Of a stretch of 64,000 nucleotides of DNA, positions 3,467 through 47,729 are shown one piece after another (position 1 is the first letter of the stretch; each line of letters begins with the position of its first letter). The translations under genes were made by a program, and so were the position numbers. Location: positions 620,001 through 684,000 of the forward strand of contig CAMRHE010000077.1 of the NCBI GenBank assembly GCA_947044405.1, given 5' to 3'. Origin of the DNA: Leptodactylus fallax. Taxonomy: Eukaryota; Chordata; Amphibia; Anura; Leptodactylidae. The notes under the pieces are model-generated. The model saw nothing but the letters and a program-made list of their open reading frames with translations. It did no database searches and was not told where the DNA came from.

Positions 3467-3521
<55 letters not shown>

Positions 3522-8857: not shown

Positions 8858-11812
8858 TTAGTGCCTTCTCATCCAGATTGCACCACCGCCCAGTATGATG
8901 GCAACCACTGACACAATAAGTATCTACAAGACAAAAAATGTATAAACTGATATAGGAAACCTGTCACATCATCTACATCCTAAGTGCATATTTGTTATAT
9001 TAGATAGACATACAATGCCTAGATAAATAACACCACATAGTGCCCAGATAGTACTATACAGTGACTAGGTACATAATACCACACAATGTCCAAATAGTGC
9101 TATATAGTGCCTAGATAAATAACACCACATAGTGCCCAGATAGTACCATACAGTGCCCAGGTATATAATACCACACGGTGTCCAAATAGTGCCATATAGT
9201 GCCTTGATAAATAACACAACATAGTGTCCAGATAGTACTATACAGTGACTAGGTATATAATACCACACAATGTCCAAATAGTGCTATATAGTGCCTAGAT
9301 AAATAACACCACATAGTGCCCAGATAGTACTATACAGTGACTAGGTACATAATACCACACAATGTCCAAATAGTGCCATACAATGCCTAGATAAATAACA
9401 CCACATAGTGTCCAGATAGTACCATGCAGTGCCTAGGTATATAATACCACACAGTGTCCAAATAGTGCCATACAGTGCCTAGATAAATAACACCACATAG
9501 TGTCCAGATAGTACCATACAGTGCCTAGGTATATAATACCACACAGTGTCCAAATAGTGCCATACAATGCCTAGATAAATAACACCACATAGTGCCCAGA
9601 TAGTACTATACAGTGACTAGGTACATAATGCCACACAATGTCCAAATAGTGCTATATAGTGCCTAGATAAATAACACCACATAGTGCCCAGATAGTACCA
9701 TACAGTGCCCAGGTATATAATACCACACGGTGTCCAAATAGTGCCATATAGTGCCTTGATAAATAACACCACATAGTGTCCAGATAGTACCATACAGTGC
9801 CTAGGTATATAATACCACACAGTGTCCAAATAGTGCAATACAGTGCCTAGGTATATAATACCACACAGTGTCCAGACAATATCATACAGCAACTAGATAG
9901 ATAGTGCAGATAGTACCATATAGTGCCTAAATAAATAACACCACTGTGTTCAGATAGTGCCATATAGTGTCTAGATAAATAATAGCATACACTGTCCAAC
10001 TAGTACCATACAATGCCTAGATACATTTTATCTCACAGTTTCCAGATAGCCCAGGTTAGTAGTGTTATATATGGTCAGTGGTACATTTGATGGCTTCATC
10101 TCTCTGGCCAGGTATAGACAGTCATGTAGGGACCACTGTACAGTCCATGGGCCAGGAGAGGACTTGGCGATATTACATCTTCCAGACCACCCTGAATGAT
10201 CTGTTTGTACACAGGGATAAATAATTGTTCTTACCTGGCGCCAACGTTTCCTCCGAGCTGAAAAGACAAGTAAATGATAGTGAGAATTGAATATTACCAC
10301 ATGTCACAAGCTCTTCACATTTCACACAAATCCCTCTTATTATTAAAAAGGAAATCGCTAAAAAGATTTACAACATAGCAGTGAAAAAGGCCGTTCAGTA
10401 TGTACTGACACCAGAGAAGGAAGATGCAGATAAGTCACAGTATTATACATGGGTGAGGTGCAAACTATCACCATGTACCTACTCACACCTCGATCATGTA
10501 TGAGGGCTTATTGCATACTATAAGGTACCAGTCACACAGTTATGTGTAGTGCATAATGCTGGCTAACAACCTATTGGGTACCTCATACTATTAAAGGGGT
10601 TGTGCAGGATTAGAACACATGGCTGCTTTATTCTACTCAGGAAGAGACCTCATGTCCATTGGTCTTATGACAGTGCTACAGCTCTTTGCCATTAAAATGA
10701 ATGTGACCAACGGACATGATGTCACTTCCTGAGAAGAAGAAAGCAACCATGTTTTCTAATCCTGTACAACCCCTTTAAATCAACCCCTCGCATTGTGGGA
10801 CCCTTCTAATAAAAGATTGTCCAAATATAAATCATAGCCCTTGCCCCTCATAACCCCATGTAATATCCCATGGTCCATCCTCACCTTGTTCCTCAATCAT
10901 CTTCTCTATCTGTCTCAGTTTAGCCACTGTCCCTGGAGCCTGGCAGTCTCTGACTAGAGTATTTTTCTCTGTCAAGGTGAAGCAGAAGACCTCCATGGCT
11001 AGTCGCTGTAGACTGGGCTGGTTCTTTAGGATTCTGGTTCTGTGTCCATTGTTTCCATCATCATCCAGATCATCAATCACCACAATGACATTTTCTTTCC
11101 CTTGAAGACATTTCATCACAACCAGTTGATACAGATGTGAGTAGGGGACCTTGAAGGTCAATGTAGACTAGAGACATCCTCAATACTATATATTCAGTGC
11201 CCAAATAATAATGCCCACAATATACAGCCATAAAACCCTTAATGATGCCTGTATAAATATACCCATAATATAGCAGTATACAATAAAGAGGGTGGAGACC
11301 ATAAGACATTTTTATGACACTAATGAGTTTCAACCCCTGGAACTCCAGAACCAAATCTGCAGCATTTTATGTTTCCATTGGTGTGTAGTAGACACCATGA
11401 GTTTTGATCACTCAAGTGTTTTATGCTACCAGATCTGAGCTCTGTAGTTTGCTGCAATATGAAGAACCCTCAAAACATTGACTGTCAGAACAGTATGTGA
11501 TATATTTATTGACTATAGAATTTCACTGAACTTACCCTTCACGGATGATAAATACTCCAGTTCCTCATCATAGAGGGAGTCGGTGACATCTGTAATGTTG
11601 ACTCTTCCTCTCCTCTTTGTGTGATACAAGATGGCGAATGCACATCTCCTGGTTCCCTCTCTGAAGCTCTCCAGCCCATTGTTAGACACATAGACAGAGT
11701 GGATGCTCCACACATAGTGGATAGTGGACAGGTAACTGGCTAACCATTGGTATGAGCTTTCATCATCTCGAGAGAATATCCCAATATTTACTCTATTCCA
11801 CGGAAATTTCAT
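8858..11812 (-). CDS. Tail-anchored alpha/beta-domain protein, paralogue 1 (unrecognised family)
   Basis: I assemble four coding exons on the minus strand: 11812-11536, 11100-10885, 10257-10235 and 8923-8858. All have GT/AG borders and compatible phases (1, 1, 0), totalling 582 nt or 193 residues plus stop. Alternating hydrophobic strands are visible: VNIGIFSR near residues 8-15, VYVSNN, CAFAILYHTKRRGRVN, KENVIVVIDDL at the start of exon 2, and EVFCFT. The spacing suggests a Rossmann- or TIR-like fold; that is inference. The third exon encodes a basic patch (RRKRWRQ). The last encodes a hydrophobic helix (ILIVSVVAIILGGGAIW) ending MRRH, so the protein should be C-terminally anchored. The start is the first ATG in exon 1, after a pyrimidine-rich acceptor; an acceptor at 11872 would extend the exon upstream. 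A paralogue lies at 14329-19217. I know no named gene for it. Confidence 0.65.
9000..10030. repeat. Dimeric minisatellite, 46-bp monomers in 92-bp units
   Basis: The block caccacatagtg recurs at 9031, 9123, 9215 (variant) and 9307, exactly 92 bases apart. Each 92-bp unit is two related 46-bp halves, one containing ataacaccacatagtg and the other ataataccacacagtg. There are about 22 monomers. The array sits in the last intron of the tail-anchored gene. Open frames across it on the minus strand are an effect of the repeat and not genes. Confidence 0.9.
10591..10782. mobile_element. Palindromic MITE with AAAGGGGTTGT ends
   Basis: It begins ttaaaggggttgtgcaggatta and ends with the inverse taatcctgtacaacccctttaa. 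The interior also pairs (catgtccattggtc against accaacggacatg). Related ends occur at 21460, 33995, 48952 and 60565. Confidence 0.75.
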
Positions 11813-14412: not shown

Positions 14413-17400
14413 GAACCTGGAGGCGCTCATCTGTAAAAGCAAGAAACCAGTGTCAGCTCATGCTATGATAGAGATTTCATCAGTCTGAAATATTGAACTA
14501 ATATAACAACCCTGACCATTGGCTTATTATAAATGCATCCACCACCACCTCCAGATTTTTTTCATCCTTTAATAAACGACCTCTCCACTGATTGAAGGAC
14601 AGTTGGAATTTTTTCTCTAGCCCACACCATTCCTGAGCAATCCGTGCAGATAGTTTTTATGCCTGATTTGATAACTAGACTCCCTAATGTCAAGTGGGTG
14701 GAGACTCAGTGCTTCAGTCAGAGGAGCAGACAATGTTAGAGCTCAGAATCACACCCCTCACCTGCTCCTGCCTGACACCACCCACTTGACATTAGAGAGT
14801 CTAGATATCATATCTGACACCAAAACTAACTGCACTGTTTGATCAGGAATGATACGAACTAGATAAAAAAATCCAACTGTGCTGGTAACAGTGGAGTGGA
14901 GCTTATCAAAGGATAAAAAGAACTGGAGTTGGTGAAGGTGGTGACAGGTCCTCCTAAAAGACTGAGCCCCCTAGATGTACAGTACCTACTATCAGGGCCG
15001 TTTTAACACATTGGTGGGCCCTGTGCAAAGGTTTCATAAGTGTTCCTCCCCATCACCACAACTTAGAAATACTTGACCTGCACAAATTATAATGCTCCCT
15101 CAATGGCCCCACATAGTGTAACGCCCCTTAGTGGCTCTCACACAGTATAATGCCTCCCTAGTGGCCCCATACAATTTAATGCCCCTTGTAATGTTCCATT
15201 CCAGGTTGCCCCCACAGATTCATGTCCCCCACTCCACGGTTGCTCCCACAGTGTCATGTCCCCCTCAGGTTGCCCCCACAGTATTATGTCCCACCACACT
15301 GTGATGTCCCCCTCAGGTTGCCCCCACAATGTCATGTCCCCCCACCCCCAAGGTTGTTGCCACAGTATCAGGTCCCCCCACCCCCAGGTTGCCCCCATAG
15401 TGTCATGCCCACCCAGGTTGCCCCCACAGTTTCATGTCCCCACTGTATATATCAAAGAAAAAAACTAAACTTAATACTCACCTTTCCCACTTCCTCCGTT
15501 CACTCCTCTCTCTGGTTCCAGAGTCTTCAAGGAGCAACAGGTGAGATGTAAGTGATGCCACTACATCGCACCTTCTGCTACCAGGACATTGGGAGCAAAG
15601 ACAGAGGCTGGATGATGAAGTATAGCAGATAGCTTCCTACTTCATCACTGTCTTCAACTCATCGGCGTCCGGAGGACGTGTGTGTCACATATGTGTGCTT
15701 TTTTGATATTCTGCCACAAGATGTCTATGCTATATATGCCTGTATGCGGCTGCCCAATGGTTGCGTTTAGAATTGCAGTCTGTTCAGGGTCCACCATGTA
15801 CACCAGCACTACCATTATTTGTATGTTCATATTGCCTGCTCCCAAATGTACCATGTAACCTAGTTCTTCAGAGGATTCTGTCCATTTTACATAGATGTGT
15901 ACATGTGAACATTTATGAACAATGCTATAGATAAGTGGCCACCCAATGGCCAAAATGTCTTCTTCATTCATTTACCTCATAAGACCTTCCATTGAAACTG
16001 GAGTAGCAACAATATTGGTAGAACCATCGGAGACAGGACATAGATCGCTCTGTGAGAATGTGAGAAAAATAAGGGTGAAGTCACTCATGATTTATAAACT
16101 GCAAGATCAAAGAGACATGGAAGTAGCTATAGAACTAAAATCAATGTATAACTAGTGCTGGATAGACATGGATGACGTATAACTAGTACTGGATAGATAT
16201 GGATGATGCATAACTAGGTCTGGATAGATATGGATGATGCTTAACTACAGTAGTGCTTGATAGATATGGATGATGCATAATTAATGTTGGATAGATATAT
16301 TTGATGTATAACTAGTGCTCAATAGATATGAATGATGCATATCTAGTGCTCAATAGATATGAATGATGTATAACTAGTACTGGATAGATATAGATGATGT
16401 ATAACTAATGCTGGATAGATATGGATGATGTATAACTAGTGCTCAATAGATATGAATGATGCATATCTAGTGCTGAATAGATATGGATGATATATAACTA
16501 GTGCTGGCTAGATATGGATGATGTATAATTAGTGCTGATAGATATAGATGATGTATAACCAGTGATGGATACATTAAGATGATGCATAACTAGTGCTGGA
16601 TACATACATGGATGTATATCTGTATAATGTATAACTTACGGTGATGCAGGACTTTACTGAGTACGCCCCTCAGGTCTTCTGCTCTTTTGCCACCTGTCAG
16701 GGCTACAATCCTGATGTATTGGTGTTAATAGATATAAATGTAGATGTACAGATATTATAATGATGACAGATATTACACCTCATCTATCATCTATTCATCT
16801 GAATCTCTTGTCTATGAGGTTGTAGTTTGGCATCTATAATTGGAGACTCTCTTGGGTGGGTGGTCATACATGATGTAAGGCTGCCCTCCACACTCCACAG
16901 GCCCGGATGCTCACTCTACTGTACCTGTGATCATCTCCTGTATCCTGGATTTGTTGTAGGCATTGTTTGGGTTTATGTCGCCATCTTGCTTCGCCTGTGC
17001 ATTGAAGAGGAAAAGATCACGAGCCAGAATTCTGATACTGGGCTGGTTCTCCAGAATTCTGTGCTTTGCTTGCTCACTGTTGTCTTCTAGATCATCGATG
17101 ACCACAATCACATTGTTGACTCCTGCATATGAATAAGGCCAAGACTTAAGACCTAAACATGTATAGTATATTAGGACACTTGACCCTCTGAGGAGCTCAT
17201 CTATAGACGGGATGAGGGCTGGGAATTTAGCTGTTTAATTCATTCATCATTACAATAAGTAACAACATTCTTTAGTTTCCCAGAATCATGAAATCACCGC
17301 ATTGATGGAGGTCCTCAGGCCCCTTGCACACGACACGTTTGCTAGTTCAGTGAGCTATCCGGGTTTTTCCTGTCCGGTTTTGTGGCTGTGCTTCCAACAT

Positions 17401-19217
17401 CCATGTGCCGCCCATGCACCGGCCATGCCGTTCAACTACGGTGGGCGACCCGCACAGGGTCATGTGCAAGGGGCCTAAATTTGTCGGCACTTCCGGTCGC
17501 CATCTTGTTGTGTGAAAGAGAAGTGGATGATCCTTCCCATATATCTTCAGTTAAGGGCAAGCATCAAAGTAAAAGTGAAAGCTAATGGGAAGGCTGAGTT
17601 TTTGTGTGTTGGGGAAAATGCAGTGTTTTTAAAAATGTGTGCATTTTTTAAAAACATACCATGTTAATTTTACATGGAAAAATGGAGCGTTTTCAGCAAA
17701 GAAAGCAGTGAAAAAGACAAGCATTTTTGGGATTGCATTTTCTGCTTTTACTACAGTTTTTACACAGTATTTTTAGCTGCCAAAATGCAGCGTTTCCACG
17801 TGTGGCCTTAGCCTAAAAAGGTTATAAACCTTTTTGAAACTGATGCTATATACTTATGACTAATCATCCATTTTAGATCGCTGAAGGCCCAACCCTCGGA
17901 ATCCCCTCTGATCAGCTGTTTGAAGAGCCTGTGTGCAAGGTTTAAATAAGGTATTAGGTCAGAATGCCATACTTTTCCTAGTGGCTGGTCTGGTCATTGC
18001 AGAATTGTCTCATTCATTTGACGTACAGGCCATGGGTTGGTTGGATGGCCCCAGGTGGAGGGGTCCTTTACATATGATGACAGATTGACATTTCTTTGGT
18101 TAAGGACCCACATTGTGGAAAAGCTGCTTTTTTGGTTGCAGATTTTGCTGCGCTTTTTGAGCCAGAGGTGGTTACAAAAGGAATGGGAAATATAAATGAA
18201 TCACTTATACTTTTTCCTTCTGCTCAATCCACTCCTGACTTTGGGTTAAAAAAAAAAAAAAATGCAGCAAAATTTTGAAAAAAAAAAGTTTTCCACAACG
18301 AGGAGCATCAGCCTAATGCCGGGCAAAAACCGTAGCGTTTTACAGTCCCTGCAAAGTGGATTCTAGCAAATCCCATCCACACATTGTAGAAAAATACGTG
18401 CAGCAGAAATTCAGTGATTTCCAAAACTGCTGCGTTTTTGGAAATCGCAGCATGTCAATTATATCTGGAGGCTTCACTATCGGTATAATTGAAGCAGAAA
18501 GTCTGCAGAGGAAAATTCTGCAGACTTTTTGTGAAAACCAGTGAGGGAAAAACTGCAATGCATTTCGGCTGCGGTTTTTCCCGCATCGCACACAGTGGCC
18601 CGCTACGTGGGGCCTAAGCCTAAAGGAGTTTTCCCAATAACCTATCACTTATCCACAGGATGGATAATAAGTATCTGATCACTGGGACCTCCTCCCATTT
18701 TGAGAACAGGGGGTCCGCTGACCCTGTTTGATTGGAATTGCGCACGCTGTCGCTCCATTCCCAGTATATGGGACACATGTAGATAATCGAACACTGTACT
18801 CAGCCTTCTATATTGGTCCCATAAAAATTGAATGTAGTGGTAGTGCACATGCAAACAGGGACACTGGACCTCTGTTCTCATGACTGGAAGGAGTTACAGC
18901 GGTGGGATCTCCAGACATCAGACACATGCCACCAACCCTGTGCAGCATTTCACAGGTACCTTGATCTTACCAAGAACTCTGGATAACTCCCTCAGTTCAC
19001 TGTCGTATAAGGAGTCTGTCACATCAGTGACATTGACTCGTCCTCTCGTCCTTGAATGGTATAAAATAGCAAATGTGATCCTGCTGATAAGTAAAGCAGA
19101 ATGATTGGTGATCTCCACTGGACGGACGTTGTCCTTAGGAAGGAAAGTATAAAGGAACTGGAGTAACCATCGGTAGTTATCAATGCCGCATCTGGAGAAG
19201 ATTCCGACCGTTGCCAT
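14329..19217 (-). CDS. Tail-anchored alpha/beta-domain protein, paralogue 2 (unrecognised family)
   Basis: Five coding exons can be joined on the minus strand: 19217-18971, 17122-16925, 16693-16640, 16049-15976 and 14430-14329. They have GT/AG borders and matching phases (1, 1, 1, 0), giving 675 nt or 224 residues plus stop. The first two exons are clearly paralogous to those at 11812-10885. Shared blocks are VGIFSR, FAILYHSRTRGRVNVTDVTD, SLYDSEL, NVIVVIDDLED, RILENQPSI and LFLF. The C-terminal half differs: a basic/amphipathic segment (KRAEDLRGVLSKVLHH), a Cys/aromatic-rich exon (WFYQYCCYSSF), then a membrane helix exon (FWLLGIMAAVLCLYILVVYW). The ATG sits 14 bases into the first coding exon, suggesting that the upstream exon is untranslated. 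Function is unknown; a signalling or scaffold role at a membrane is inference. Confidence 0.6.
14545..14965. mobile_element. Palindromic MITE (family A)
   Basis: Ends near 14550 (accaccacctccag) and 14940 (ctggagttggtgaagg) are inverse. Internal blocks pair too (cccaccattcctgagcaatc-type against gatcaggaatg, and tcaagtgggtgga against ccacccacttgaca). A second copy lies at 32290-32610. Confidence 0.7.
15062..15445. repeat. Minisatellite of about 28 bp, C-rich
   Basis: Units of the type ggttgcccccacagtatcatgtccccc recur from about 15200 to 15440. More degenerate gtggccccacatagtataatgcc units lead in from 15062. It lies in the last intron of the second tail-anchored gene. Confidence 0.7.
16145..16625. 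repeat. 31-bp tandem repeat
   Basis: The block ctggatagatatggatgatg recurs at 16158, 16189 and 16220 and onward, about 31 bases apart, alternating with ataactagtg. It ends just before the small exon at 16640-16693. Confidence 0.85.
17315..17830. mobile_element. Two adjoining MITE-like repeats
   Basis: 17315-17480 begins aggccccttgcacacgac and ends gtcatgtgcaaggggcct, an inverted pair. 17590-17820 is a second low-complexity, A/T-rich palindromic stretch ending tggccttagcctaaaa. No coding potential is seen. Confidence 0.5.
18100..18615. mobile_element. MITEs with GGCCCCACGTTGCGG-type ends
   Basis: 18100-18312 and 18317-18615 are hairpin-forming elements. They share the core gttgcagattttgctgcg and ends related to caacgtggggccttagcc. 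Better-preserved relatives are at 23295-25087 (interrupted) and 25222-25429. Confidence 0.65.
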
Positions 19218-19660
19218 CTTTAGTGTCTAGTCTGTAGAAGATAAAAGGTCTATTCAAAGTATTCACTTCTTCTGGATTCACAAAACTACAAAAAAGAATA
19301 GTAACAATAGAAAGACATGAAACATGGTAGTATGTGCGTAGTATTACCCTAGAACTAGTATTCATAGCCATCAGGAGTCATTGGGGTTCTTCAAGAGCTT
19401 GGTCTGCCAGGGATCAACATCTTCTACTGTCTCTTCCTGTCCATCATCCATAGTGATGTTTAACTGCTCTTCACTTTTGATTTGGGTTTGATCCCTTTAG
19501 TTTCTCTGTAATATCAATCCCAGTATGCCGCTACCCTACTAGTTACACCTATGATCTCCTGGTATCTCAATGTGTTGTCCTGCATATTTGAAAACAATAA
19601 ACTGGATTATATCGAATGCACCCTGCATCATCTTCTGCTGTACCTATACCATAGATCCTA

Positions 19661-27385: not shown

Positions 27386-30300
27386 CTACATATTAAAGGT
27401 TTTCTTGAGACTTTCTTTGGCCATCTCCTTGGTCAGATTGTTCCATTCCTTCGGGTAGTCAGCTGGTTTTGCATGATACTGGCTTGCAAATTGGTCATTG
27501 AACTCTTTAAGAACAAATTTCCAATAATCGGCGGCTTTGATGCTGGGATCAGGCTGAATTCTCCAGTCGGGATAGTAATCTTTATATTTCTTATACGGAT
27601 GAGGTTTTTCATTGGTATCGCTATTCATGAATGTTCCATTTTCACAGACTGAAGTGGTACAAATATCGTGACAAAGAATTAATGATTCTGAACATCTGTA
27701 CGTTCCTAATCCTTTAGGTCGATGGACAGAGGCAAAATGTTCTTTGTGGTCTTCACCTCCTGCTTCACAAGGAACCTTGCAGAATGGACACTGCTTACCG
27801 CATCCAAACACCTTCTTAAACAGTTCATCTTGAGGTTTCACCGATACTCTTGAAAGTATAACATCTCTACCCAGTGCTTCTAATTCTGATAGGATTTCTT
27901 CTTTTGTGTCTGAAAGGAAGTTGTTCAGGTTTTTAATAAATTCCTTTGTGTTTGCCGAATTTTTGAAAATAATCGCTTTCATTTTTTCCTTCGGGAATAC
28001 CAAGTCACTGCTTAAATTATCCTGGAAATGATCAAGAAAATCTTCCAAATTATGATCCCACATTTCAAGACTGATGAGCACATCTCTGATCTTCTCTGTA
28101 ATACCTGAAAGGATCTTGATTTCCATTGTGATGAAGTTTTTGTATTTCCTTTTGACATATTTCAATATCCAGTTTTTCACGAACTTTTCATAGTTTCTGG
28201 AATACTTAACATATTTTTTAAATTTATTTTCTTCCAGAAGATCTAGGAGAACAGTGTACTGGAAAAACGTACGAGAGGTGTATGTTGCTGATCCTTCGGA
28301 CCTCATGATGTCATCGACAAGTTCAATGCCGAGATTTCGAATGATGTGATCAATGATTGCTGGTTTTAGACACGTGTCACAGATGCGTTTGGCGAGATTC
28401 TGGCTTTCATTCTTCTCTTGGAATACATCCATAAATGAGTTAAAGTATTCAGATTTCAATGTGTCCAGCTGTGAATGAGGGTCATTCTTTTTTATGAAGT
28501 TATTATGCATCTCCTGGAAATCATCAACAACATGTCCTAGTATTTTTAATTTTATGTCTAGCTCCTGTTCAGCCGGGATATTCCCTTCCTTTGTAAGACT
28601 GTCATCAATTATGTTCAGCAGCTGTTTACAGTAGGTGTCATCATAATCGCCATCTTTCCTGGCCTGTTCCTCGGAATATCTACAACATTTCTCTAGAACA
28701 GATTGAATAATATCCTCATGCTTCATATTTCCTTTCCACCATTTATAGGGGCTTTTAAAAAATGTATTAATTGATTTCATTTTCCCGCCAGTATGCTTTT
28801 TCTCAGGTTTTGGCAAGTGTTGTGTTTGGTTTAGTTTTTCATTTACTGCGGATCCCCTGTCTCTCATGGTCTTGGTGAGCTCTAGCAGCATGTCTTTCTC
28901 AATATCATGTTTTATGAGAGGCGTTACTCCTAACTCTTTGACTGTATCTTGCCACATAATCTCAAACTCCCTTGTCAACTTTGCATTGTCGAGCTGATGT
29001 TGTTTCTTTCTGCAATCTTCCATAAGGCTGGACACTTTGTGTTCGATCCCCTCAATGTACTGCATGCGTACTTTTTTTATTTTGTGTTGCTGTTTTTGGA
29101 TTTGCATTGCATTGATGTATTTATCCTGTGAGGACATTCTAAGGTTTTTTCCAAGCATCTTTGCGCTGTTTATAAAGTCTTCTTTGTATCTTATTAAATT
29201 AATACAATCTTTATTTTGTTGGAAATAATCTTCCACCCAGGTTATCATCTTATTCTGCTCAACTGAAATGATGTTTTCTAACTTAATACAACATTCTTTA
29301 CCTTTGTCTTCCAAAGTATCTTCAGATTGGTTTTTGATAATGGTTTCAGTATTAGTTAACCATTCATGGATCAATTTGTTGAATTTCCACTCTAACTCAG
29401 AATATTTCATGGACAGTTTGTTGTAGGCGCTGGCTACCAAGCTATTTCTGAAACTGAAGATAAAGTTCTCATGTTTGACTGCATTCCATAAGTCTTCCGT
29501 CCACTTAACAAATTGAGGAATAGTTTGTGCTCCAGTTTGGCTTTGCTTAATCATTTTTAGTAAATTTAGCTTCAATTCAGCAATGTGTTCACTGTATCCA
29601 GCACTGACTGGGGCCATTGGCGGGACACCTTGCCACAGACTTGGGATGTACCAATGGTGCTGTTCTGAATCATACTCCATAACATCAGAAAATACCTTAT
29701 ACTGAGGCTTCTTCTCCATGGTTGCCACAGTTCTGGTCATTTCATTTAGTTGTTCCAGCAGCTTATTCCGGTCTCTCATATTCTTTTCATGAGCCGAAAC
29801 ATCGCTCACATTTTGATGAACAAACTGGCAATTGGGCTTCTTTCCAATTTCTTTCATTCTGAGAAATGAATGGATCACTATCTGTATAATATCTTTCATT
29901 TCTGTTATATTTTCCATGGCCATATTTATTACAGTGATGTCACTTAACCCAACCACTAATGTAGCCAACTCATTGTCATGTTCATAACTGCCCTCCAGAG
30001 AATCTAGCTCGGGAGCTTTCAACCCTTCAGTGTCAATCACCAAAAGATATTCACAACCAAGCTCCACTTGGATGTTCTCCTTCACTTTAATAAGTGTCAT
30101 GAAGGCTCCTCGTGTGCATCGTCCACTGGCCACAGGGTACTGTAGACCAAACATGGTGTTCAGAAGTGTGGACTTCCCTGTGCTCTGTACTCCAAGCACC
30201 GTTATTACCCTTATTCTGCATCTGTCACCTGTCTTAGTGTTCACTTTATTAAGAATATCTGTTACCCATTGCACCGGGATCCTAGATGCATCACCATCGA

Positions 30301-32005
30301 TCAGTTCCAGCGGGTAGCCATCAAGCAGAAGATCAGCTGCTGCTTCAGAGAGATACTCGCATTCCATCTGATGTTTCCCTATGAAATTCCAAACCTCATA
30401 AAACTGAGACATCTCTCTCATGAAATGCTCAATTCCTAACGAACTGTCTGATATCTTCTGATCGATTTCTGTCAACTCTTTTGAGTTTCTGGCCTGAGAA
30501 TATTTCTCTTTATATATCTCCTGTAAAGATGTAAGAGTTTTCCTTGCTGCTAAGTCCAAATAATATTTTAACCAACTTAAAAAATAAAACTTTTCGGATC
30601 GATTTTTGGTTCCAATCCCTTTCATAAACTGAACGATTCCTTCCGGCATGTGACATTCCCACTGTTTCCTCCTTATGTCATCACATTTTCTTCTCAGCTC
30701 AGATTTGTATTTTTCCCCATTTTTATTGTGTTGTTGTTTCATCTGACAGAGTTCTTTTTCCAGTTTTGCTAAGTCTCTTAGAAGTTGCGCCTGCAGTTTC
30801 ATTGTTTTTTCTTTGTAGTTGACGACATCACTAATCTCTTCAGTTATTGCTTTGGCTTTTTTTTTCTGCAGCCTGGCATTCTTTTTCTCTTTCATCTACA
30901 CAGATCCCTTGCTCTATTGCTGTCTCGGCCATGTCTTCGATACTAAGGAAATTACAATTTTCTTTCTCCAACTTCATCAGAGCTGAGTGAATCTTCTTAA
31001 CAGTTGCAGCTTCATTTGTACTTTTTGTGATCACTAAGACATTGTCCTTCTTTGTTTCAGTCATGGACACCACTGACTCGAGAATATCCTCAATTTCTTC
31101 TCTGCTCTTTTGCTCTTCAGGCACAATAATGTAGAGAAAGGTGGTCTTGGAGTTTCTATATTTCAGTAATAATTCACATTGAGTCTTACTAACAGCTTCA
31201 GCAAAGATTACAACAACTGAAGATATCTCTGCTAGAAAGCCAAATGTCTTAACATTGTTCTCCAATTCCCCACGAAGGTTTGTAAAAGCAACAGGCTCAG
31301 CAAAGATGCCTTTACCAGCAGGAAAATACCAAGACATCTCTACCAGCCCCATTGATATATTCCTTTCTACATTTCCACCATCCATGTCTCTGTGAACAAA
31401 GATGTCTTGATAATGTTGTGTTGAAGTCAGAATTTTGTTTAGAATGTTAGATTTAGAAAGTCTGCATTTTCCCAGTCTCATAAAGGAAAAGGTTGGCATG
31501 GAAATTTTCACTAAATGTTCCTCCTGGAATCCTCTGCTCTCTGATAGGGATTGAGGTCGCCATTTCTTCACGATTCCCCTCATTGCCCACAGCATAAAGG
31601 TGCAATCAGGACCATCACTGGCTGGAAGCAACAGAGGGACAGAAAACTGACACATGGACATTTTTGATATCATCTCTTGTTGGAGGAAATGATCTGAGCA
31701 ATGCAAGATGGTGCACTGTAAGTCTAATGGATGGATACTGCCTGACATGTCACAGTCCACATCCAGGAGTAAGCTGCTATTCTTGCTAATTTCTGCTCTG
31801 TTCCCTATTGTACTGATATTCCTAGCCTCCTTATGCAAAGACATCAGTTTTCTTATATAATTCCAGGCTACATTTTCCATAGGAGAAAAGTCAGGTCTCA
31901 CACATTCCACTCCAATGTCAAGAACATCATGTAATGTAAGCTTGGACTTCTGGTAACTCTGAAAGTTCATCTTCATGAGAAGATCCTGGAAGCAAGTTCT
32001 CTTGT
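27386..32005 (-). CDS. Giant VLIG/GVIN-type very large GTPase exon
   Basis: This 4.6-kb exon follows an acceptor (TATTTTACAG) at 32006. The first part (to about 30860) has the N-terminal VLIG/URGCP region: HPLDLQCTILHCSDHF, a PLLLP block, and MPTFSFMRLG/LSKSNILN. The second part has the GTPase: P-loop GVQSTGKST at 30193-30170, RCTRGAFM as likely switch, and DTEG as G3. A long helical region follows, then a Cys-rich C-terminus (CGKQCPFCKVPC) with an HRPKG motif and a PYKKYKDYYPDW tail typical of VLIG proteins. Members are interferon-induced, mostly soluble GTPases of poorly known function. One base too many in an A9 run (30857-30865) breaks the frame; being in a homopolymer, it may be an assembly error. 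At about 1540 residues it is shorter than mammalian VLIG1 (about 2400). Confidence 0.9.
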
Positions 32006-32289
32006 CTGTAAAATAATCATAAATAATAGAAGCGATTATATTGACTTTTACAATGCATGTAAAAACGATCAATATCAGAGACAGAAAGGACTGTGCATCT
32101 ATATTGTGATTAGTACTAGTGCAGTACATTGTAACTTCCTGTAGGACCAACCTTTGAGGTCACAGAAAGGAAAGGAAATAAAGTGGAGGACCAGTGGAGT
32201 TTATGATGTTTTCAAACTTGAATTAAAACTTTGGGATTTCTGGGTTCTCTGGTCTCAACTTACCTAGTATGACTGCCAAATCTATATCT

Positions 32290-32610
32290 GATGAGGACCT
32301 TTCAGAACTTCCACCAACTCCAGCTCTTTGCATACTACAATAGAGGCTGCTCCACTGATTCCAGCACAGTTGGATTTTTTTTCTAGCCCCCACCATTCCT
32401 GAGCAATCAGTGATGTTAGTTTCAGCACCCAATAAGGTAATTAGGATCTCTACTCTGGGCAGTGCTGATCTGGAGCATATAGTCTAGGACTGCCCACCTG
32501 ACAGTGGAGAGCATAATTACTTAATTACTCCAATTACTATTATTAGATCCTGAAACTACACTGATTGCTCAGGAACGGTGGGGGCTAGAGAAAAGATGCA
32601 AAGAGTGGCC
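32290..32610. mobile_element. Palindromic MITE (family A, second copy)
   Basis: ccagcacagttggatttttt and accattcctgagcaatcag on the left mirror ctgattgctcaggaacggtgg on the right, and both resemble the copy at 14545-14965. It sits in the intron just upstream of the VLIG exon. Confidence 0.7.
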
Positions 32611-32812
32611 CCTGCCATGTGTGTCACCCTGGTTTATGTTTCCCCTGCCTAAAGAAGTTCTTTAAGTGATTTGAACCTGTGAAATGTGAGTTATTAGCTA
32701 TTTCTTGCTTATCGCTCAGGTTGAGTCTCTGTAGCGTGTGGCTTCAGCTCTGAGATTTCCAATTTAAAAGTTTTACATGTAGTTAAATCCAATAAATATG
32801 AAGCACACCCAC

Positions 32813-32884
32813 CTAATTTTTTGGGTTCTATCTTTAAATTTGCTTTGGGTAAATGGATATCCTCATACGTAGAAACAGAGAGAT
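32813..32884 (-). CDS. Linker exon of the CARD-VLIG gene
   Basis: This is a 72-nt exon between an acceptor (CTTTTGCAG) at 32885-32887 and a donor (TTAG|GTGGGT) at 32811-32812. It enters and leaves in phase 1, matching both neighbours. The 24 residues (including STYEDIHLPKANLKIEPKK) are hydrophilic and without a known motif. Confidence 0.6.
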
Positions 32885-33079
32885 CTGCAAAAGATGAATG
32901 TATATTATAAAATTAGTTTTAGCAAATAAAGTTGATTGGATATGCATGTATGTATGGAATAGTTAAAGAAGATGTTTAGTATGGAAAACTGAAAATCTGT
33001 TACAGAAAATGAGGTTGGGGTAAGGAGGTGGTCTTCTCAAAGATGTGGTCTTTTAGCGTGATTTCACTGTGTTAGTTAC

Positions 33080-33154
33080 CTTTGTCAGTATTTACTTCCT
33101 TTGGTTCCTCAATGTGACTTTTCTTTGTCTCTTGCCATGGAAAATCTTTCTCAT
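33080..33154 (-). CDS. Linker exon of the CARD-VLIG gene
   Basis: This is a 75-nt exon between acceptor CTTGTTATCAG and donor AAAG|GTAACT, phase 1 in and out. It encodes an acidic, charged stretch beginning DEKDFPWQETKKSHIEE. Its phase and location link the CARD exon to the VLIG exon. Confidence 0.6.
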
Positions 33155-33537
33155 CTGATAACAAGAAACATACGATTGTATAATCTATTGTAACAGGCAT
33201 CTGATCATTGACCCATTGTGCTACCAAACTGGTATTGCTTGAGGCCACCTCTAAAGGTGTTGTTCTAGCAAACTCCCAGATTTGCATCCTTTAGCTCCCA
33301 TACAGGTATCTGGACTTTGTTGCAGGAAGTCCGCCATGCCACTACCTCCTGAGGTGGTCCTAGTTTGGTAGCATCTGACTAGGCAGGTCAGGACTATGGT
33401 GCAGTGCAGTACAGAAACAGATAAAAATGCAAGGTGTGAATAATGGCTAAATATACGATAAAACATACAGATCACAGCTTTGTCTAAAACATAAATTTAG
33501 GACAGGACATAACACAGATAGCAGAGATATTGCAGAA

Positions 33538-33655
33538 GGTCAACAGATAATAGAAGCCATATGCTAACGGATAGCAGATAGCTGAAGCCATAGGCCAACA
33601 TGAGACAGGTAGTAGAAGTCATAGGCCAACAGGAAACATGTAACACAAGCAGATT
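33538..33655. repeat. Short degenerate tandem repeat
   Basis: Three to four copies of a unit of the form agatagcagaagccataggccaac, in an intron. Confidence 0.5.
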
Positions 33656-33994
33656 AGGACATAAACCAGACATGGTAGAAAGAAACTCAGACAAAACAGA
33701 AGCTTGTAATAGATTAAAAGCAGGAACTAACACATTGTGCAGCACACGTGAGACTAAATAAACAGACATAAATATGTATATACAGACAGGGATTGGCAAG
33801 AGGAAGTTTGCAGGTGAGAACACAAATCTTTAAAGAGACAGGCACACACACAGAGGTAGCCAGGCAGCTAGGCCCGCTGGGTAGGCAGTACGCCAGTGAG
33901 CACAGAGCGCCAGTGTTATACTTATCATGAACATATCTAAAAAGCAGCTACAGGAAAAATATCAAGAAAATACCAAATTCATTTCAGTGAACTT

Positions 33995-34260
33995 ATAGGG
34001 GTTGTCCAGAATTTTTTATTTATGGATTATGCTTAGGAGAGGCCATAAGTATCTGATCAGTGGAGGGGCAGACAGGCAGCCCATGCATAGATCAGCTGTT
34101 CAGGTCTACTTCTAATGCCCACACTATACACAGTATAGAGCCGGAAGCAGATGGCTCCATGCCCTGTATAGTGGCTGGGTGTCCTGACTGCAGTTCAGCT
34201 CCCATTGAAGTCAGTGGAGAAACTGCAGTTTTTTTTTACCAGTTCTAACTCCTTCGGAAT
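33995..34260. mobile_element. MITE-like repeat with aggggttgtccag end
   Basis: It opens ataggggttgtccagaattt and continues with the gataagtatctgatcagtgg-type interior shared with 18640-18700. The right end is eroded. Confidence 0.4.
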
Positions 34261-34463
34261 TTTTTTCCAGTTTCCCAATACATTGTACAAAATATAAAAT
34301 GAAGCTGTTATGAAGTACAATTTGTCTTGCAATGGATTTGTGAATGAAAAAATAAAAAAGTTATGGCTTTTGGAACATGGAAAATAAGAAGGAAAAATTT
34401 TAAAAAAGCTGCCGTGGAAAGGGGTTAATCAATAAACCCATCAGGTGGAATTTCTTCTCTTAC

Positions 34464-34726
34464 CTTGGTTTAGGTGCAAGCACTGGAGGAATGCTCTACA
34501 GGTCGCCTCATCTTTCTCAAGAATTATGTTCAGTAAGGAGCGTGCTTTTTGTTTCACACTACTTGTATTTTCAACCTTACGATATTCTTCCTGTGTGATA
34601 ATGTCCATTGAGTCACAATCATCCAGAAAGTCATCAAAGTTCTTCTGTAGAGCGGCCATAATCTCTTTTCTTGATCTTCGAATATAATTCACAGCCTGGT
34701 CTGAAGAGCCTGCCACCATTGCAGCT
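34464..34726 (-). CDS. CARD (caspase recruitment domain) exon
   Basis: The exon lies between acceptor CATCTTAAG at 34727 and donor CCAAG|GTAAGA at 34463. It encodes about 87 residues with the CARD pattern of amphipathic helices: AVNYIRRSRKEIMAAL, FDDFLDDCDSMDIITQEEYRKV, SSVKQKARSLLNIIL, and EATCRAFLQCL. CARDs mediate homotypic assembly in inflammasome, apoptosome and MAVS-type signalling. It enters in phase 2, exactly the phase left by the donor at 35546 of the upstream kinesin/repeat exon. It leaves in phase 1, matching the linker exons. An internal ATG at 34719-34717 could instead start a stand-alone CARD-VLIG protein. Confidence 0.75.
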
Positions 34727-35546
34727 CTTAAGATGAAATAGAAAAACTTGCTTAGAAGTATTGTCACATCATTCACTATCTTATCCTAGTTGGAATCAGG
34801 ATTGTAGAGTCAAAGTTGAGTCTAGTTTAGGTAGAGTCAGAGTTGGAAAAAAGTTACTCCGACTTCAAAATAAAATGATTAATAATTTAATTTACTTTCA
34901 TAGGAATTCAGTCACTACTTTTTTACTGCTTCTGTCTGACCATGGCTGTCAGCCATTATGAGTCGGGGTCAGAGTAGGAGTTGCAGTTGGACTTTGAATA
35001 AGAGAGGATGGGGGTTAGTGGTGGGTGGCTTATTGACTACATAACCATGGTTGGAAACTGCGACAGGCTGCAATTCACAACACGACCTCTGGGTGAAGTA
35101 AAATCATGTTTTTATTTTTAACTCATCTGGGATGAGCAGCACAAGATGAGTTTTGGCTTACTTACTTAAGCAAAGTACAGAATTGTGGTTCCCTTTAAAG
35201 TGAATTTCATGTGTCCTTTTTATTTCAGTTTGAGCATTTTTCTTACACAGAGCTCCAAATCCCATCTACTATACTACATATCTAATTCACATGGGTTAGC
35301 TTCTTGTGAATTCATACTGGCTAACACATGGAGATCATTCTGTGTGTGTCCCCGGCCTAAGATAGTTTTCATATATCTGCCCTTTGGTGCTCCAGACTCA
35401 ACAAAAGCCTTGAGTGAGGAGATCGCTTATATACATAATGAAATGTATTATGTTGAAATAAAAAGCAAGATGGAATGAATGTATAGGGTTAAAATGGGAA
35501 ATGTACAAGTGGAGTATAAAGATAGAAGGAGAGATTCAGTGCTTAC
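34727..35546 (-). other. Intron between repeat exon and CARD exon
   Basis: Delimited by a donor (ACAGG|GTAAGC) and the CARD acceptor. I see no ISRE, TATA box or other promoter sign in it, which favours one transcript over two genes. Confidence 0.45.
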
Positions 35547-38500
35547 CCTGTGTGTCTTTCACTTGTGCCATGTATTCCTGGGCTACTTGCAGACCTGGTA
35601 ATATTGTCTTCAAGAAAAAGTTCTGCTGGAGATGTTGGAGTATCATTTCTATCCTCTTCACTAGATGTCTTACTTTTGCTTCTTATATTTTGTTCCATCT
35701 CAGTCTTAGATATTGGATTAATGGAAATATCAAATTCATCACCTTTAAATATCTGGTTTTCGCCATCTGTATTTTCCTCTATTTCAGCCTGAGCTGCTGG
35801 GCAGAAGATATCAGTTTTATCACCACTTTTAGATATCAGGTTTCTGATATTTCGTTCTATTTGTTTGTTTTCTGTCTGAGATATTGAGGTGATGGAAATA
35901 TCAATTTTATCATCCCCTTTAGTTATTTGGCTTCCGGTATTTTGTTCTATTTCAGCCTGAGATATTGAGGTGATGGAGCCATCAGTTATATTATGCTCTT
36001 CTTGAGATATCTGAATTCCCGTATTTTGTTCCATTTCAGCCTGAGATGTTGAGAAGAGGGTGATATCAGTTTTATCTTCTTTGTCTTTAGATTGCTGATT
36101 TTGTCCCTCTAAATGATGTTTTGTTTCAGCCTGAGATGTTAACGTTAACGAGACATCACTTACATCATCTTCTTTAGATATCTGCTTTGCGCTACTTGTA
36201 TTTGCTTCCATTTCACCCTGAGATGTTGAGGTGGTGGAGAGATCACTTACATCATCATCTTTAGATATCTGGTGTTCACTACTTACATTTGTTCTATTTC
36301 AGTTTGACATATTGGGGTTATAGAAATGTCATCTGTGTTATCCTCTTTGGATGTCTCTCTCTCCATACATATACTTAGTAATGTTTCAGTCTGAGGTATT
36401 GGGATGATGGAAATATCAATTTTATCATTGTCTTTAGATTTCTGGTTTTGGCTTCTCAATTCTTGTTCAATTTCAGCTTGAGATGTTGAGGTGATGAAGA
36501 TGTCAGATTTTTCGTCTTCATCTTTGGATATCTGACTTTTACCACTATTATTTTGTTCTATTTCAGCCTGAGATATTGAGGTGATGAAGACATCAGTTAT
36601 ATTATTCTCTACTTTAGATATTTGGTCTCCTGAATGTTGTTCCATTTCAGCCTGAGATGTTGAGGTGGTGGAGAGATCACTTACATCATCATCTTTAGAT
36701 ATCTGGTGTTCACTACTTACATTTTCGTCCATTTCCGTTTCACATGTTGGGGTTATAGAAATGTCATCTGTGTTATCCTCTTTGGATGTCTCTCTCTCCA
36801 TACATATACTTTGTAATGTTTCAGTCTGAGTTATTGGGATGATGGAAATATCAATTTTATCATTGTCTTTAGAATTCTGGTTTTGGCTTCTCAATTGTTG
36901 TTCCATTTCAGCTTGAGATGTTGAGGTGATGAAGATGTCAGATTTGTCGTCATCATCTTTGGATGTCTCTCTCTCCATGCATATACTTTGTAATGTTTCA
37001 GTCCGAGTTGTTGGGATGATGGAGACATCAGTTATATTATGCTCTTCTTTAGATACCTGGTTTCTCGTATTTTGTTCCATTTCAGCCTGAGATGTTGAGG
37101 TGGTGGAGAGATCACTTACATCATCATCTTTAGATATCTGGTGTTCACTACTTACATTTTCGTCCATTTCAGTTTCATATGTTGCGGTTATAGAAATGTC
37201 ATCTGTGTTATCATCTTTGGATGTCTCTCTCTCCATGCATATGCTTTGTAATGTTTCAGTCCGAGTTGTTGGGATGATGGAGACATCAGTTATATTATGC
37301 TCTTCTTTAGATACCTGGTTTCTCGTATTTTGTTCCATTTCAGCCTGAAATGTTGAGAAGATGGTGATATCAGTTTTATCTTCTTTGTCTTTAGATTGCT
37401 GATTTTGTCCCTCTAAATTATGTTTTGTTTCAGCCTGAGATGTTAAGGTTAAAGAGACATCACTTACATCATCTTCTTTAGTTATCTGTGTTGTGCTAGT
37501 TATATTTGCTTCCATTTCACCCTGAGATGTTGAGGTGATGGAGAAATCAGTTTTATCATCATCTTTAGATATCTGGTGTTCACTACTTACATTTTGTTCC
37601 ATTTCCGTTACACATGTTGGGGTTATAGAAATGTCATCTGTGTTATCACCTTTGGATGTCTCTCTCTCCATACATATATTTTGTACTGTTTCAGTCTGAG
37701 TTGTTGGGATGATGGAAATATCAATTTTATCAATGTATTTAGAATTCTGGTTTTGGCTTCTTAATTTTTGTTCTATTTCAGCTTGGGATGACAGATTGAT
37801 GGAGATATCAGTTTTATCATCATCTTCTTTGGATATCTGACTTTCACCACTTAAATCTTGTCTCATTTCAGCCTGAGATGTTGAGGTGATGGAGAGATCA
37901 TTTTTATCATCATTGTTTTTGGTGATCTGTTTTTTGGTACTTAAATCTTGTACAATTTCGGCCTGAGATATTGATTTGATGGGGATTTTTGTACTGTCAA
38001 TCTGTTTTACACTACTTAAATCTGTTTCCATATCAGCCTGAGATGTGTTGATGGAAATATCATAATAATCTTTAGATATCTGACTTTGACTCCTGATATT
38101 TTGTTCATTTTCAGTCTGCGATGCTTGTTTGGAGCTACCCATTTTATTGTCATCTTTACATATCTGGCTTTCATTGCCTAATATTTGTTCCAGTTTATTC
38201 TGAGATGTTTGGGTGATGGGAACATCAGTTGTATCCTCTCTTTTAGGAATCTCTTTATAGCTCTTTAAATTTTGCTCCATTTCAGTTTGAGATGTTGAGT
38301 TGATGGACATTTCATTTATTTTATTATCATCCTCTTCATGATCATCATCGTCTTTAGATATTTGCTGTTTGCCGCTGAAATGCTGTTCTATTTGAACCTG
38401 AGATGTCAGATCGAAGGACATTGCAATCTTGTCATTATCTTTAGATATCATGTTGTCAAAGGATCTATTTTGCTCCATTTTAGTCACAGATGTAGAGCTG

Positions 38501-38735
38501 ATGGAAAAATCAGTTTCACCATTGTCTTCTTTTGACATCCGGTTTTCACAACTTAAATTTTCCAATTTAGTCTGAATTGTCAAATTGCTGAAAATTTCCA
38601 TTTTATTACCATCATTATCAACAGCAGCGTCTGTATCAGATTTTTTTAGTTCATTAGGTAAAATTAGTTTAGGGTTTCTGTCATCATTTTTATTTTCATT
38701 TGGAGATACTTTTATTTCTATGGTTGTATTTTTTT
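35547..38735 (-). repeat. Coding repeat of about 29 residues, roughly 30 copies
   Basis: Translated on the minus strand, units resemble QISKDDDKTDISITSTSQ followed by AEMEQN and a variable spacer; each is about 28-31 residues (about 87 bp). The product is acidic and Ser/Thr/Gln-rich, so it is probably disordered. Larger blocks of several units are nearly identical (for example around 36640-36840 and 37080-37280), showing recent duplication. Two one-base indels interrupt the frame: an A7 run at about 38729-38735, and a short A-run near 36285. Confidence 0.85.
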
Positions 38736-40651
38736 CTGTCACAGGAATCCTGATCTTCTAAATGTTTATTGTGACTGATTTCTGGAGATACAATAGATCT
38801 ATTCTGAGAAATATCATCCTTTTGACTGGAAGAACCTATTATTCTGGAGTCATTAGAAAATGTACACAGCGGCTCAGAGCTATTATCTCTATAAGACCAA
38901 TCACTGATGTCTGGACCAACACTCATGTCACTTTCTTCATGGATGGAATCATTTCCTGGTGGATTTTGTTCTTCAGGTTCATTTAAAAGGACATTAACAG
39001 CATCGTCTTCTTCCTTAGTGTTGGTGGGTTTAGAGTTCGGCTTACATAGTATGAAGGAAACTGTGGTCCCAAGTTGTATTCTATCTTCATGACTTAATGT
39101 AACGACTGTTAGGACTCTCAAACTATTCACAAAGGTTTCAGCATTTTTGTTGGGGGTGAGAAAAACTTTCCCATCTTCTATGTCAATCATACAATGCTCC
39201 AGCTCTATTCGAGGACCAATGACCTTGATGTCTTGAGAATCACCAGCACCAATTTTTGTTTTTCCTCCTAAATAATGCAGAAACAATTCATTCTGATCAC
39301 TATTGGTAGATAAGTTTATGAGATAACATTTATCTTTATCAACTCTAATTCCAGTATGCTCGACAGTGATTCCAAGGTTTTGGAGCTGATTTTGCCGTTC
39401 CAAGGCCGACATTTCAGTCTTCTTTAGCTTTTCTTCCCAGGAGACCTTTAGATCTCTCAGAAGCTTTTCTGATTCATTTAACTTTTCCTCCAGTTCCTGT
39501 TTGTAGTTAACTTCAGCTTGTTGAAGTTGTTCTCTCAGTCTTTTTACTTCTTCTTTCAGCTCAGTTATAGCCTTAGATTTGATGTCTTCGTTCACCGTTG
39601 CTTTGTTCACTATACGTTTGGCACTGTCGGCATAGTTCAAAGTGGAAAGAGTCTCCTGATAGTTAACTGAGGCTGGGCTTATTGTGGCCAACATTACAGT
39701 CTTGCTATTTCCTCCAAGATTATTTTTTAACAGCCAGGTGAGCTTTGAGTCTCTGTAATTCACATAAGTACTCTTCCTTTTACCATCGGATAATTCAGCC
39801 AATGAATTTATAACCAGACCAAGAAATGTAAGTGACTTATTGATGTTACTGCTTTCTTTCAATTGATCCCCAGTAGCTCCAGAAGTGGAAGTTCTTTCAC
39901 TTCCTGCCAAGTCCACCAGGCTAACCTTGCTGAGAAGTTCTTTCAGTACACCACGCTCAACCTGAAGTGTCTGTGTGACTGTGAGAGTGAATATTGCATG
40001 TGATCGACTGCTGTGTTCATTCATTTTTGTATTGGCAATCATCCGGCATTTGTTTCCTTCAAGTATCAGTGATTTTATGTCTTCGGTATTACTGACAACA
40101 TGATGAGACAAACCTTCTACATAAGGACCAAAAGTTTTGTGTTCTCGAACTTTAAGTGCCTTAAAGTCACTTGTGGGATACAAAAGATCTCTCACTTTCT
40201 CATTGTATATCTCTAAGTATGCGGCTTCAACTTGGAGACTTTTCAAGTGATTTATGTCTCTTCTGAATAAGGAGGAACATAATCTTGGCACCAGACCAGG
40301 CTGATCATCTGTCCCCATCATAGAAAATGTTTTTCCTGATCCTGTTTGACCGTAAGCAAAAATGCAACAGTTGAATCCTGCGAAGATGCTGTCAAGGATG
40401 TCTTCTCCGATTGTCTTAAAAATATCCTCCTGACTTGTATAAGTGGCTGGACCTTCATCATCTACAGACCAGAAACAGTGATCAAAGACAAACTCTTTTT
40501 GTGCTTTACAGTTCCCTTCATATGTGTGGGATGTGAATTTCAGGACGGTTTGTTTTCCTTCCATGTACACTACACATTCTGACTTCAGATCAATTTCTCT
40601 CTGATTCATCGGCCGCACCCTCACAGCCACTTTCACTTTGCTGTCCACCAT
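35547..40651 (-). CDS. KIF13-like kinesin-3 motor with FHA domain and repeat tail, intronless
   Basis: The ATG is at 40651-40649. Residues 1-360 form a kinesin motor with P-loop GQTGSGKTFSMMG, switch I NEHSSRSHAIF and switch II DLAGSER, then the kinesin-3 neck sequence (YADSAKRIVNKATVNED). A coiled coil (KEEVKRLREQLQQAE) and an FHA domain (about residues 430-540) follow, in the order seen in KIF13A/KIF13B; phrases such as REIDLKSECVVYMEGKQTVL place it nearest KIF13. KIF13 genes have many introns; here motor, coiled coil and FHA are one exon, as expected of a retrocopy. The exon continues into the acidic repeats and ends at a donor (35546/35547) whose phase fits the CARD exon. If unspliced, it would stop two bases into that donor. 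All catalytic motor residues are present, so it is probably not a dead copy. Acceptor TTTTTTCCTTCACAG precedes the 5' UTR part at 40735. Confidence 0.85.
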
Positions 40652-41227
40652 TTTCTGTGGCTGTAACTCAATGCAATTTGATAAAACGTAGCAATAATTG
40701 CTCTTTGGTCATTTTATGTTGAAACCTGTGAAGGAAAAAAGTAAAAACATGAGTTATATGCACAAAAATATAATACAATAAAATGACCAGTTTTAGTTTA
40801 TTGCATTAATACTACAACTGCTTTCCTGGTTTGTTTTAAACTTGTTTTAACTATTGTGATGTGTCTTCCTTATCTTTCTGCATGTTTCTAAAAAAAATCA
40901 TAAGTGGAAGAAGATAACCAGATTTGGGGCATTGTGTTTAATGCCACTTATCCAGACATACACGTGGACAAAATTGTTGGTACCCCTAATTTAATGAAAG
41001 AAAAACCCACAATGGTCACAGAAATAACTTGAATATGACAAAAGTAATAATATATAAAAATTTTATGAAAATGAACAAATGAAAGTCAGACATTGCTTTC
41101 CAACCATGCTTCAACAGAATTTTAAAAAAAAAGAAAACTAATGAAACAGGCCTGGACAGAAATGATGGTTCCCAGGTTTGAAGGGTGCCTCTTCCAGATG
41201 GCATGTTTCAGCTCCTTTTAAAGATGC

Positions 41228-44200: not shown

Positions 44201-45083
44201 CCATCTGCTGCCTGACGGTCCCAACTAGATCTGGGCGATCCATCAAAGCTTCATTTAATCTCCAGCACCAATCCCTTTGAGGCAGTTGGCGCAGTGTTAA
44301 CCTAGCCCATACTGGTGCATGATCGGACACCGATATAGAGTCGATGCGGGATTGCAGAGAATATGGGGCTAGATCTCTAGTGACAAAAATATAATCCAGT
44401 CTCTGATAGGATTGCCGAGGATTGGAAAAAAAGGAATAATCCTTCACGGATGGGTTGTGCAGACGCCAAAGATCGACCAAATGCAAGTCATTTAGGTCTT
44501 GCAGGAGTCTACCCAGTGCTTTCTGGGGAATAGATGATGTCCCTCTAGAGGCATCAAGAGCAGGGTTGAGAGTGAGGTTAAAATCGCCAGCTAGGATTAT
44601 AGAACCTTCTGCAAAGAGTTCCAGTGTGCGCAGAGCCTCAACAAGCCAAGCCACTTGGCCTTGATTGGGAGCGTAGAAATTGGCAAAGGTGTATTTATAA
44701 GTAGCGATAGTGCCTTTTAGCAGCAGAATTCTGCCCTCGGAGTCCTCATAAGTTTGAGAACACTGGAAAGGTACTGAGGAATGAAATAGAATAGAAACAC
44801 CCCTAGAGGAAGCAGTGGGATTCGTGGAGTGGAAACAAGTAGTGAACATTTTTGTGGGGAGGCGAGGGATTTTCCCTGTCTTGAAATGAGTTTCTTGAAG
44901 GAACGCCACATTTGTGTGTAGCTTACGGAGTATGGTAAAAATTTGAGATCTCTTATTCGGGGAATTTAGGCCATGGGTGTTAAAGGAAGTAAAAACTAAT
45001 TCGGACATGGTGGCCCTGAGACAATGTGAGTCCAATGGGTAAGAAGGGTGAGGAAGAGAGGGAAAGGAGTGGTATTTGAACAA
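41228..45083 (-). pseudogene. LINE ORF2: endonuclease and reverse transcriptase
   Basis: The AP endonuclease (45083-43956) shows NTHGLNSPNKR, FLQETH, AGDFNL, RLDYIF and SDHAPVW. The reverse transcriptase (43882-41885) shows SYRPISLLN, GVDAEKAFDRVDW, GTRQGCPLSP and the catalytic AFADDVLF. The C-terminal part (41857-41228) has a CWRC...HIWWQC knuckle. Lesions are a frameshift near 43965-43975 and an in-frame TGA at 41882-41884. The enzyme nicks DNA and copies its own RNA by target-primed reverse transcription. With so few lesions it is a fairly recent insertion. Confidence 0.9.
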
Positions 45084-47665: not shown

Positions 47666-47729
47666 TTGAGTGTTTTAAGGCAGGTAGTGGCTTAGTGTCT
47701 GACGGAGCTGCAGGCTCAGACGTCCATCA

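Follow-up and report, generated by a model that had tools for sequence, protein, structure and literature searches.

Giant GTPases of the VLIG/GVIN/URGCP group carry a URGCP domain and a GTPase in one giant exon, and human GVIN1 has been described as a coat-forming member that coats cytosolic bacteria (PMC11974893, preprint); the word kinesin is absent from the GVIN1 text as far as the excerpts of that preprint extend. Here we describe a locus of the frog Leptodactylus fallax that combines such a GTPase with a motor related to KIF13A, a kinesin-3. The locus lies on the minus strand of C77:620001-684000, a stretch of 64,000 nucleotides that was analysed as a whole and is referred to below as the window. 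Its arrangement points, with a probability that we put at roughly 0.85, to a fused gene in which a KIF13A-derived motor precedes a CARD and a VLIG GTPase. A preliminary description of this DNA had noted that no described protein is known to join a motor, a CARD and a VLIG, and our literature search likewise turned up neither a kinesin-VLIG nor a kinesin-CARD protein; fused sequences are already present in public databases, under automatic names.

As shown in Table 1, the candidate gene comprises five exons, and all its internal exon borders have AG before and GT after the exon. The exons total 10,135 nt; after removal of two extra As and addition of one missing A, 10,134 nt remain, that is 3378 codons including the stop. 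Exon coordinates, borders and codon sum were recomputed and proved correct as previously given, and the exon lengths dictate the phases reported earlier, 2 at the kinesin/CARD junction and 1 at the others. The domains named in the preliminary description were all recovered by Pfam: Kinesin (3.2e-108), FHA (2.2e-11), CARD in exon 2 (4.9e-13; 49.3 bits vs. a cut-off of 23.9), URGCP (1e-109) and URGCP_GTPase (1.2e-192), the last two in a single exon, as in VLIGs, apart from the frame break near 30850. No Pfam match to the KIF13A stalk, DUF3694 or CAP-Gly was obtained in the three kinesin-exon frames of the window.

Table 1. Features of the candidate fused gene and of neighbouring matches (window positions).
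Feature	Position	Strand	Details
Exon 1: putative KIF13A-derived motor, neck/coil, FHA and repeat tail, intronless	35547..40651	-	5105 nt; donor CACAGG/GTAAGC
Motor and FHA, portion matching KIF13A residues 1-551	39023..40651	-	P-loop GQTGSGKT, switch I NEHSSRSH, switch II DLAGSER
Tandem-repeat tail of kinesin exon	35869..37982	-	periods 84 to 435 nt
Exon 2: CARD	34464..34726	-	entered in phase 2, left in phase 1; has an ATG of its own at 34719-34717 (AGG in C819)
Exon 3: linker	33080..33154	-	conserved in C819
Exon 4: linker	32813..32884	-	similar residues in Bufo proteins and Leptodactylus copy 2
Exon 5: VLIG (URGCP domain, URGCP GTPase, C-terminal part)	27386..32005	-	frame break at A9 run near 30850, common to C819
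Possible 3′ part of an exon of the 5′ untranslated region	40652..40725	-	acceptor CCTTCACAG/GTTTC upstream of kinesin ATG; presumed equivalent TTTACAG at C819
Neighbour: two matches to second C-terminal domain of ranoid kinesins	10964..11806	-	10964-11128, 11516-11806
Neighbour: two further matches to the same domain	16989..19223	-	16989-17126, 18954-19223

A genome search for kinesin motors gave at least 128 matches, four of which span the whole model in one open frame (window, C819:357115, C146 and C114). The C146 and C114 motors are 41-43% identical to the window motor. The window and C819 motors match KIF13A residues 1-551 and 1-549, respectively, in one frame and at 59% identity. In the same genome KIF13A proper falls into 19 separate pieces (of 27 matches) over about 76 kb (C31:9264662-9340814); the motor is thus intronless while its parent is multi-exon, as expected of a retrocopy. 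A tree of 48 rows placed all nine fused motors in one group (100/100) nested within anuran KIF13A. The KIF13-like retrocopy of the preliminary description is supported by the single exon, and on the tree the motor falls with KIF13A, not KIF13B. Since the retrocopy would be old and is 3′-truncated, neither a poly-A trace nor a target-site duplication is expected to survive. Directly upstream of the kinesin exon we observed open frames at 41228-47674 (minus strand) resembling long interspersed elements (LINEs), an identity that we presume from reverse transcriptase, endonuclease and open reading frame 1 motifs; no match to these frames was found in the 20 kb upstream of C819.

The order seen in the window recurs at C819, with a kinesin exon (82% identity over 575 residues), a CARD (74%; 44.8 bits in Pfam), linker 3 and a VLIG exon (78-84%). 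At the kinesin/CARD junction C819 retains phase 2, the donor AGG/GTAA and an AG acceptor. No frame break interrupts its kinesin exon, and a single reading frame of 1128 residues leads from kinesin through CARD and linker into the VLIG, as far as the A-run break common to both loci. The kinesin-CARD introns of the two loci align at their edges only, and a counterpart of linker exon 4 was not found in C819 (20 aligned bases only). As AGG replaces the ATG of the window CARD exon, the first in-frame Met of the C819 CARD exon falls inside the CARD. The ratio of nonsynonymous to synonymous substitution rates (dN/dS) between the window and C819, taken over both branches together, was 0.21 for the motor, which is thus under constraint, 0.385 for the coil-FHA part, 0.27 for the CARD, and 0.33 and 0.23 for the VLIG. 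The kinesin P-loop and switch I are intact in all nine fused motors; switch II reads DLAGSER in seven, whereas Hyla has DLSGSER and Leptodactylus P0001 has DLAGSEC (DL[A/S]GSER in 8/9).

The preliminary description had proposed a search of frog proteins for kinesin and VLIG/CARD in one chain. Using residues 1-560 of the C819 product as query, we scored the 7988 candidates of about 1257-4000 residues that share most words with it and listed the best 120. Among the matches listed are seven fused predicted proteins from six species (Leptodactylus fuscus, Hyla sarda, Bufo gargarizans, Bufo bufo, Dendrobates tinctorius and, with two, Phyllobates terribilis), all with the motor before the VLIG in a single chain. 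Taxonomy places L. fuscus and P. terribilis in Hyloidea, and with the families that we assume for the remaining species there are four in all. Kinesin, FHA and URGCP GTPase were detected in all seven proteins and CARD in six, P0006 aligning across the CARD nonetheless; the GTPase P-loop and DTEG are present in 7/7, and KIF13A stalk or CAP-Gly domains of Pfam are listed for none. Six bear the name interferon-induced very large GTPase 1-like, and one is uncharacterized. P0001 has no Met within the first 40 or so CARD residues. A search with the CARD region among 121 candidates gave five matches, of which four are fused proteins and the fifth is P0121 (copy 2), a VLIG of Leptodactylus; the dendrobatid fusions were absent from these five. 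The repeat tail between FHA and CARD is long in the window, short in P0008 and C819, and about 1000 residues in P0007; the spacing of motor and GTPase is thus fast-evolving. In P0007 (Phyllobates) the CARD-VLIG linker has itself turned into a tandem repeat of NSPEQEVKKSPTEESEKI units.

As judged from the sequences, the recurrence of order, borders and phase at C819, together with the seven fused predictions, supports an arrangement that is more than chance. Capture of the retrocopy as an N-terminus, proposed earlier, gains from a junction kept in two loci, from a C819 CARD without its start and from fused predictions in six hyloid species. CARD and VLIG were probably joined before the motor arrived. 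Five weaker CARD matches, only 29-36% identical to the window CARD, lie 2-13 kb upstream of same-strand VLIG matches on C304 and C819 (its second VLIG) and have no such kinesin. In all four of these that were read, an in-frame Met stands just before the CARD, which makes CARD-VLIG the likely older form and the kinesin a later addition; the missing CARD Met in C819 and P0001 fits a start codon made dispensable.

Several observations weigh against this interpretation. In both the window (35545-35543) and C819 the donor GTAA contains an in-frame TAA, and this overlap makes a kinesin-only product possible. The fused proteins named above are gene predictions, in which similarity-driven annotation can spread one error between species; the Hyla model is flagged LOW QUALITY, and P0121 is modelled without a motor, beginning in the repeat tail and continuing into the CARD. 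A motif scan bearing on interferon inducibility revealed no TTTCNNTTTC/GAAANNGAAA site over the 20 kb that precede C819, a result of little weight either way. Other frogs that we presume to be hyloids (Engystomops, Eleutherodactylus, Dendropsophus, Ranitomeya, Anomaloglossus, Rhinoderma) are represented by KIF13A rows and by no fused row among the best 120 of the 7988 scored candidates; as a fused protein of about 1257-4000 residues should outrank those KIF13A rows, it would be unannotated there, absorbed into a different row, outside that length range, or lost. Two adjacent genes, a stand-alone kinesin retrogene with the TAA as its stop and, driven by a separate promoter, a CARD-VLIG gene starting at 34719, would account for the stop within both donors, the ATG retained in the window, the Met before the kinesin-free CARDs and the motor-less model of Leptodactylus copy 2. 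However, C819 and P0001 lack a suitable Met, donor and phase are conserved, and seven predictions from six species are fused, and we regard this arrangement as very improbable. A separate start between 35543 and 34726, which the preliminary description named as contrary evidence, is unlikely for C819 and P0001 but conceivable for the window copy, which still has its ATG. That ATG, the donor/stop overlap, P0121 and isoform names such as X2 and X7 among the matches listed would also suit a locus whose alternative starts and ends yield kinesin-only and VLIG-only products beside a fused mRNA; yet C819 could hardly yield a VLIG-only form from its CARD exon, and such a multiplicity of products seems unlikely. 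Somewhat doubtful, too, is the view that the fusion works elsewhere (C819, other species) and that the window holds a decaying pseudogene of it. The window copy does have three one-base frame breaks, with kinesin-exon frames overlapping at 38696-38757 and 36283-36298, whereas the C819 kinesin exon is uninterrupted. All three had previously been attributed to A-runs, which holds for the breaks near 38733 (A7) and 30850 (A9, common to the C819 VLIG exon); the one near 36285 lies off any long homopolymer, in an A3 where sister repeats have A4. Across 20 VLIG loci of the assembly, 10 of 13 frame breaks fall on A-runs of at least 6 (8 of 11 once the window and C819 are set aside); for the 10, the mean expected by chance is 0.98, and no draw out of 5000 reached that number. 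Homopolymer assembly error is thus a live cause, and the breaks near 38733 and 30850 may be artefacts, while that near 36285 is unexplained by A-runs. True A-run mutation would give the same clustering, indistinguishable here from assembly error, which makes a pseudogene slightly more likely than it would otherwise be, and other open frames of the assembly contain unbroken A-runs of 7 to 10. The dN/dS values below 1 speak against decay, though they cover both branches together. The kinesin-linked VLIGs L020 (about 1409) and L021 (about 2762) break at the same A-run, and both Leptodactylus proteins read through it.

The history of the motor was traced further through kinesin-FHA proteins of 1020-1030 residues, named KIF13A, in Hyperolius (Microhyloidea per taxonomy), Aquarana, Mantella, Pyxicephalus and Rana temporaria, with shorter models in Lithobates and Staurois. 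These ranoid/microhyloid motors (10 of the 14 frog rows listed, in the 48-row tree) are sister to the fused hyloid motors (100/100), although the branches are long (stems of 0.45 each, joint stem 0.56). C-terminal to the FHA, none of six ranoid proteins scanned gave a credible Pfam match, and the KIF13 stalk domains were likewise missing; a structure model predicts two Rossmann-like domains there. Relatives of this C-terminal part give at least 65 matches in the L. fallax genome: 32 on C77, the window's own contig, 17 on C304, which also bears the main VLIG cluster, 7 on C947, 5 on C460 and 4 on C608. Four lie within the window (Table 1). The window matches read DYSWLV...FGILYHTK...NVIVVIDD, and the family is expanded on C77 and C304. 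It seems from these comparisons that one captured motor was later joined to different neighbouring genes; the simplest history would have a KIF13A copy land in this neighbourhood before the hyloid/ranoid split and then meet different neighbours. Alternatively, the sister grouping could reflect long-branch attraction between two separately captured KIF13A copies. Both groups are fast, as their stems show, and that the ranoid motors are intronless is presumed. This is quite improbable, however, given the 26 states (25 residues, one gap) common to both groups against KIF13A, compared with 13 hyloid-only and 30 ranoid-only states (8 ranoid, 9 hyloid and 12 KIF13A rows), the stalk domains also missing from the six ranoid proteins, and the relatives of the ranoid C-terminal domains on the window's own contig.

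Elsewhere in the window, Tc1/mariner-like transposase frames were recognised by eye at 23938-24585 (minus strand) and 58367-59445 (plus strand), and 1-4485 (plus strand) holds long open frames of tandem repeats rich in Thr and Tyr, which are in part open on the opposite strand as well.

With regard to the fused gene, we propose that a KIF13A mRNA was reverse-transcribed and inserted amid immune-type genes in a neobatrachian ancestor. In hyloids the 5′ part of the retrocopy (motor, neck, FHA and a growing repeat tail) would have gained a splice donor and come to serve a resident CARD-VLIG gene as its first coding exon; the original start codon of that gene would then have been dispensable. This predicts a single chain, about 2300-3550 residues long, with a kinesin-3 motor, FHA, flexible repeat tail, CARD and VLIG GTPase. 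Because the stalk and CAP-Gly parts of KIF13A are gone, the VLIG would in effect be a fixed cargo: the GTPase could load itself on microtubules, be carried or held there, and CARD contacts with GTP-driven assembly could cluster many chains at a target. The coat-forming GVIN1 offers a precedent, as far as the excerpted preprint goes (PMC11974893). We hold this mechanism of a microtubule-loaded, CARD-clustered immune GTPase with somewhat less than even confidence. What the sequences show is the gene structure, its conservation at a second locus and in predicted proteins, constraint, and intact catalytic motifs; we infer a single fused mRNA, the history outlined, interferon control, motility and an antimicrobial effect. 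More broadly, and tentatively, the KIF13A retrocopy may have served as a portable motor for neobatrachian cell-autonomous immunity, joined to CARD-VLIG in hyloids and to a Rossmann-like pair, perhaps TIR- or GTPase-like, in ranoids and microhyloids. If so, these would be self-propelled immune effectors moving on microtubules without an adaptor, of which we know of no other example. Should the fusion be real at the RNA level, several hyloid families would, as their predicted proteins indicate, possess an immune GTPase that brings its own microtubule motor. One captured motor seemingly joined to two different C-termini would be a natural experiment; with such proteins one could ask whether cell-autonomous defence is limited by cytoskeletal transport, and what VLIGs gain from their placement in the cell.

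Compared with known systems, the fused protein resembles KIF13A in motor, neck and FHA and in its retained catalytic motifs, but in the frog gene this part is encoded by a single exon and is followed by a repeat tail and CARD-VLIG instead of stalk, DUF3694 and CAP-Gly. The kinesin-free CARD-VLIG loci have the same order of CARD and VLIG with a more distant CARD, preceded by a Met in the four read, and the ranoid/microhyloid proteins a sister motor and FHA with the modelled Rossmann-like domains in place of CARD-VLIG. From other VLIG/GVIN/URGCP GTPases the frog protein differs by the CARD and kinesin motor in front. Finally, TRIM5-CypA is likewise said to be a chimeric protein made when an immune gene captured a retrocopy; there, the retrocopy reportedly forms the C-terminal, target-binding part, whereas in the frog gene it would supply an N-terminal motor, a retrocopy turned into the N-terminus of a resident gene through one gained splice donor and a dispensable old start.

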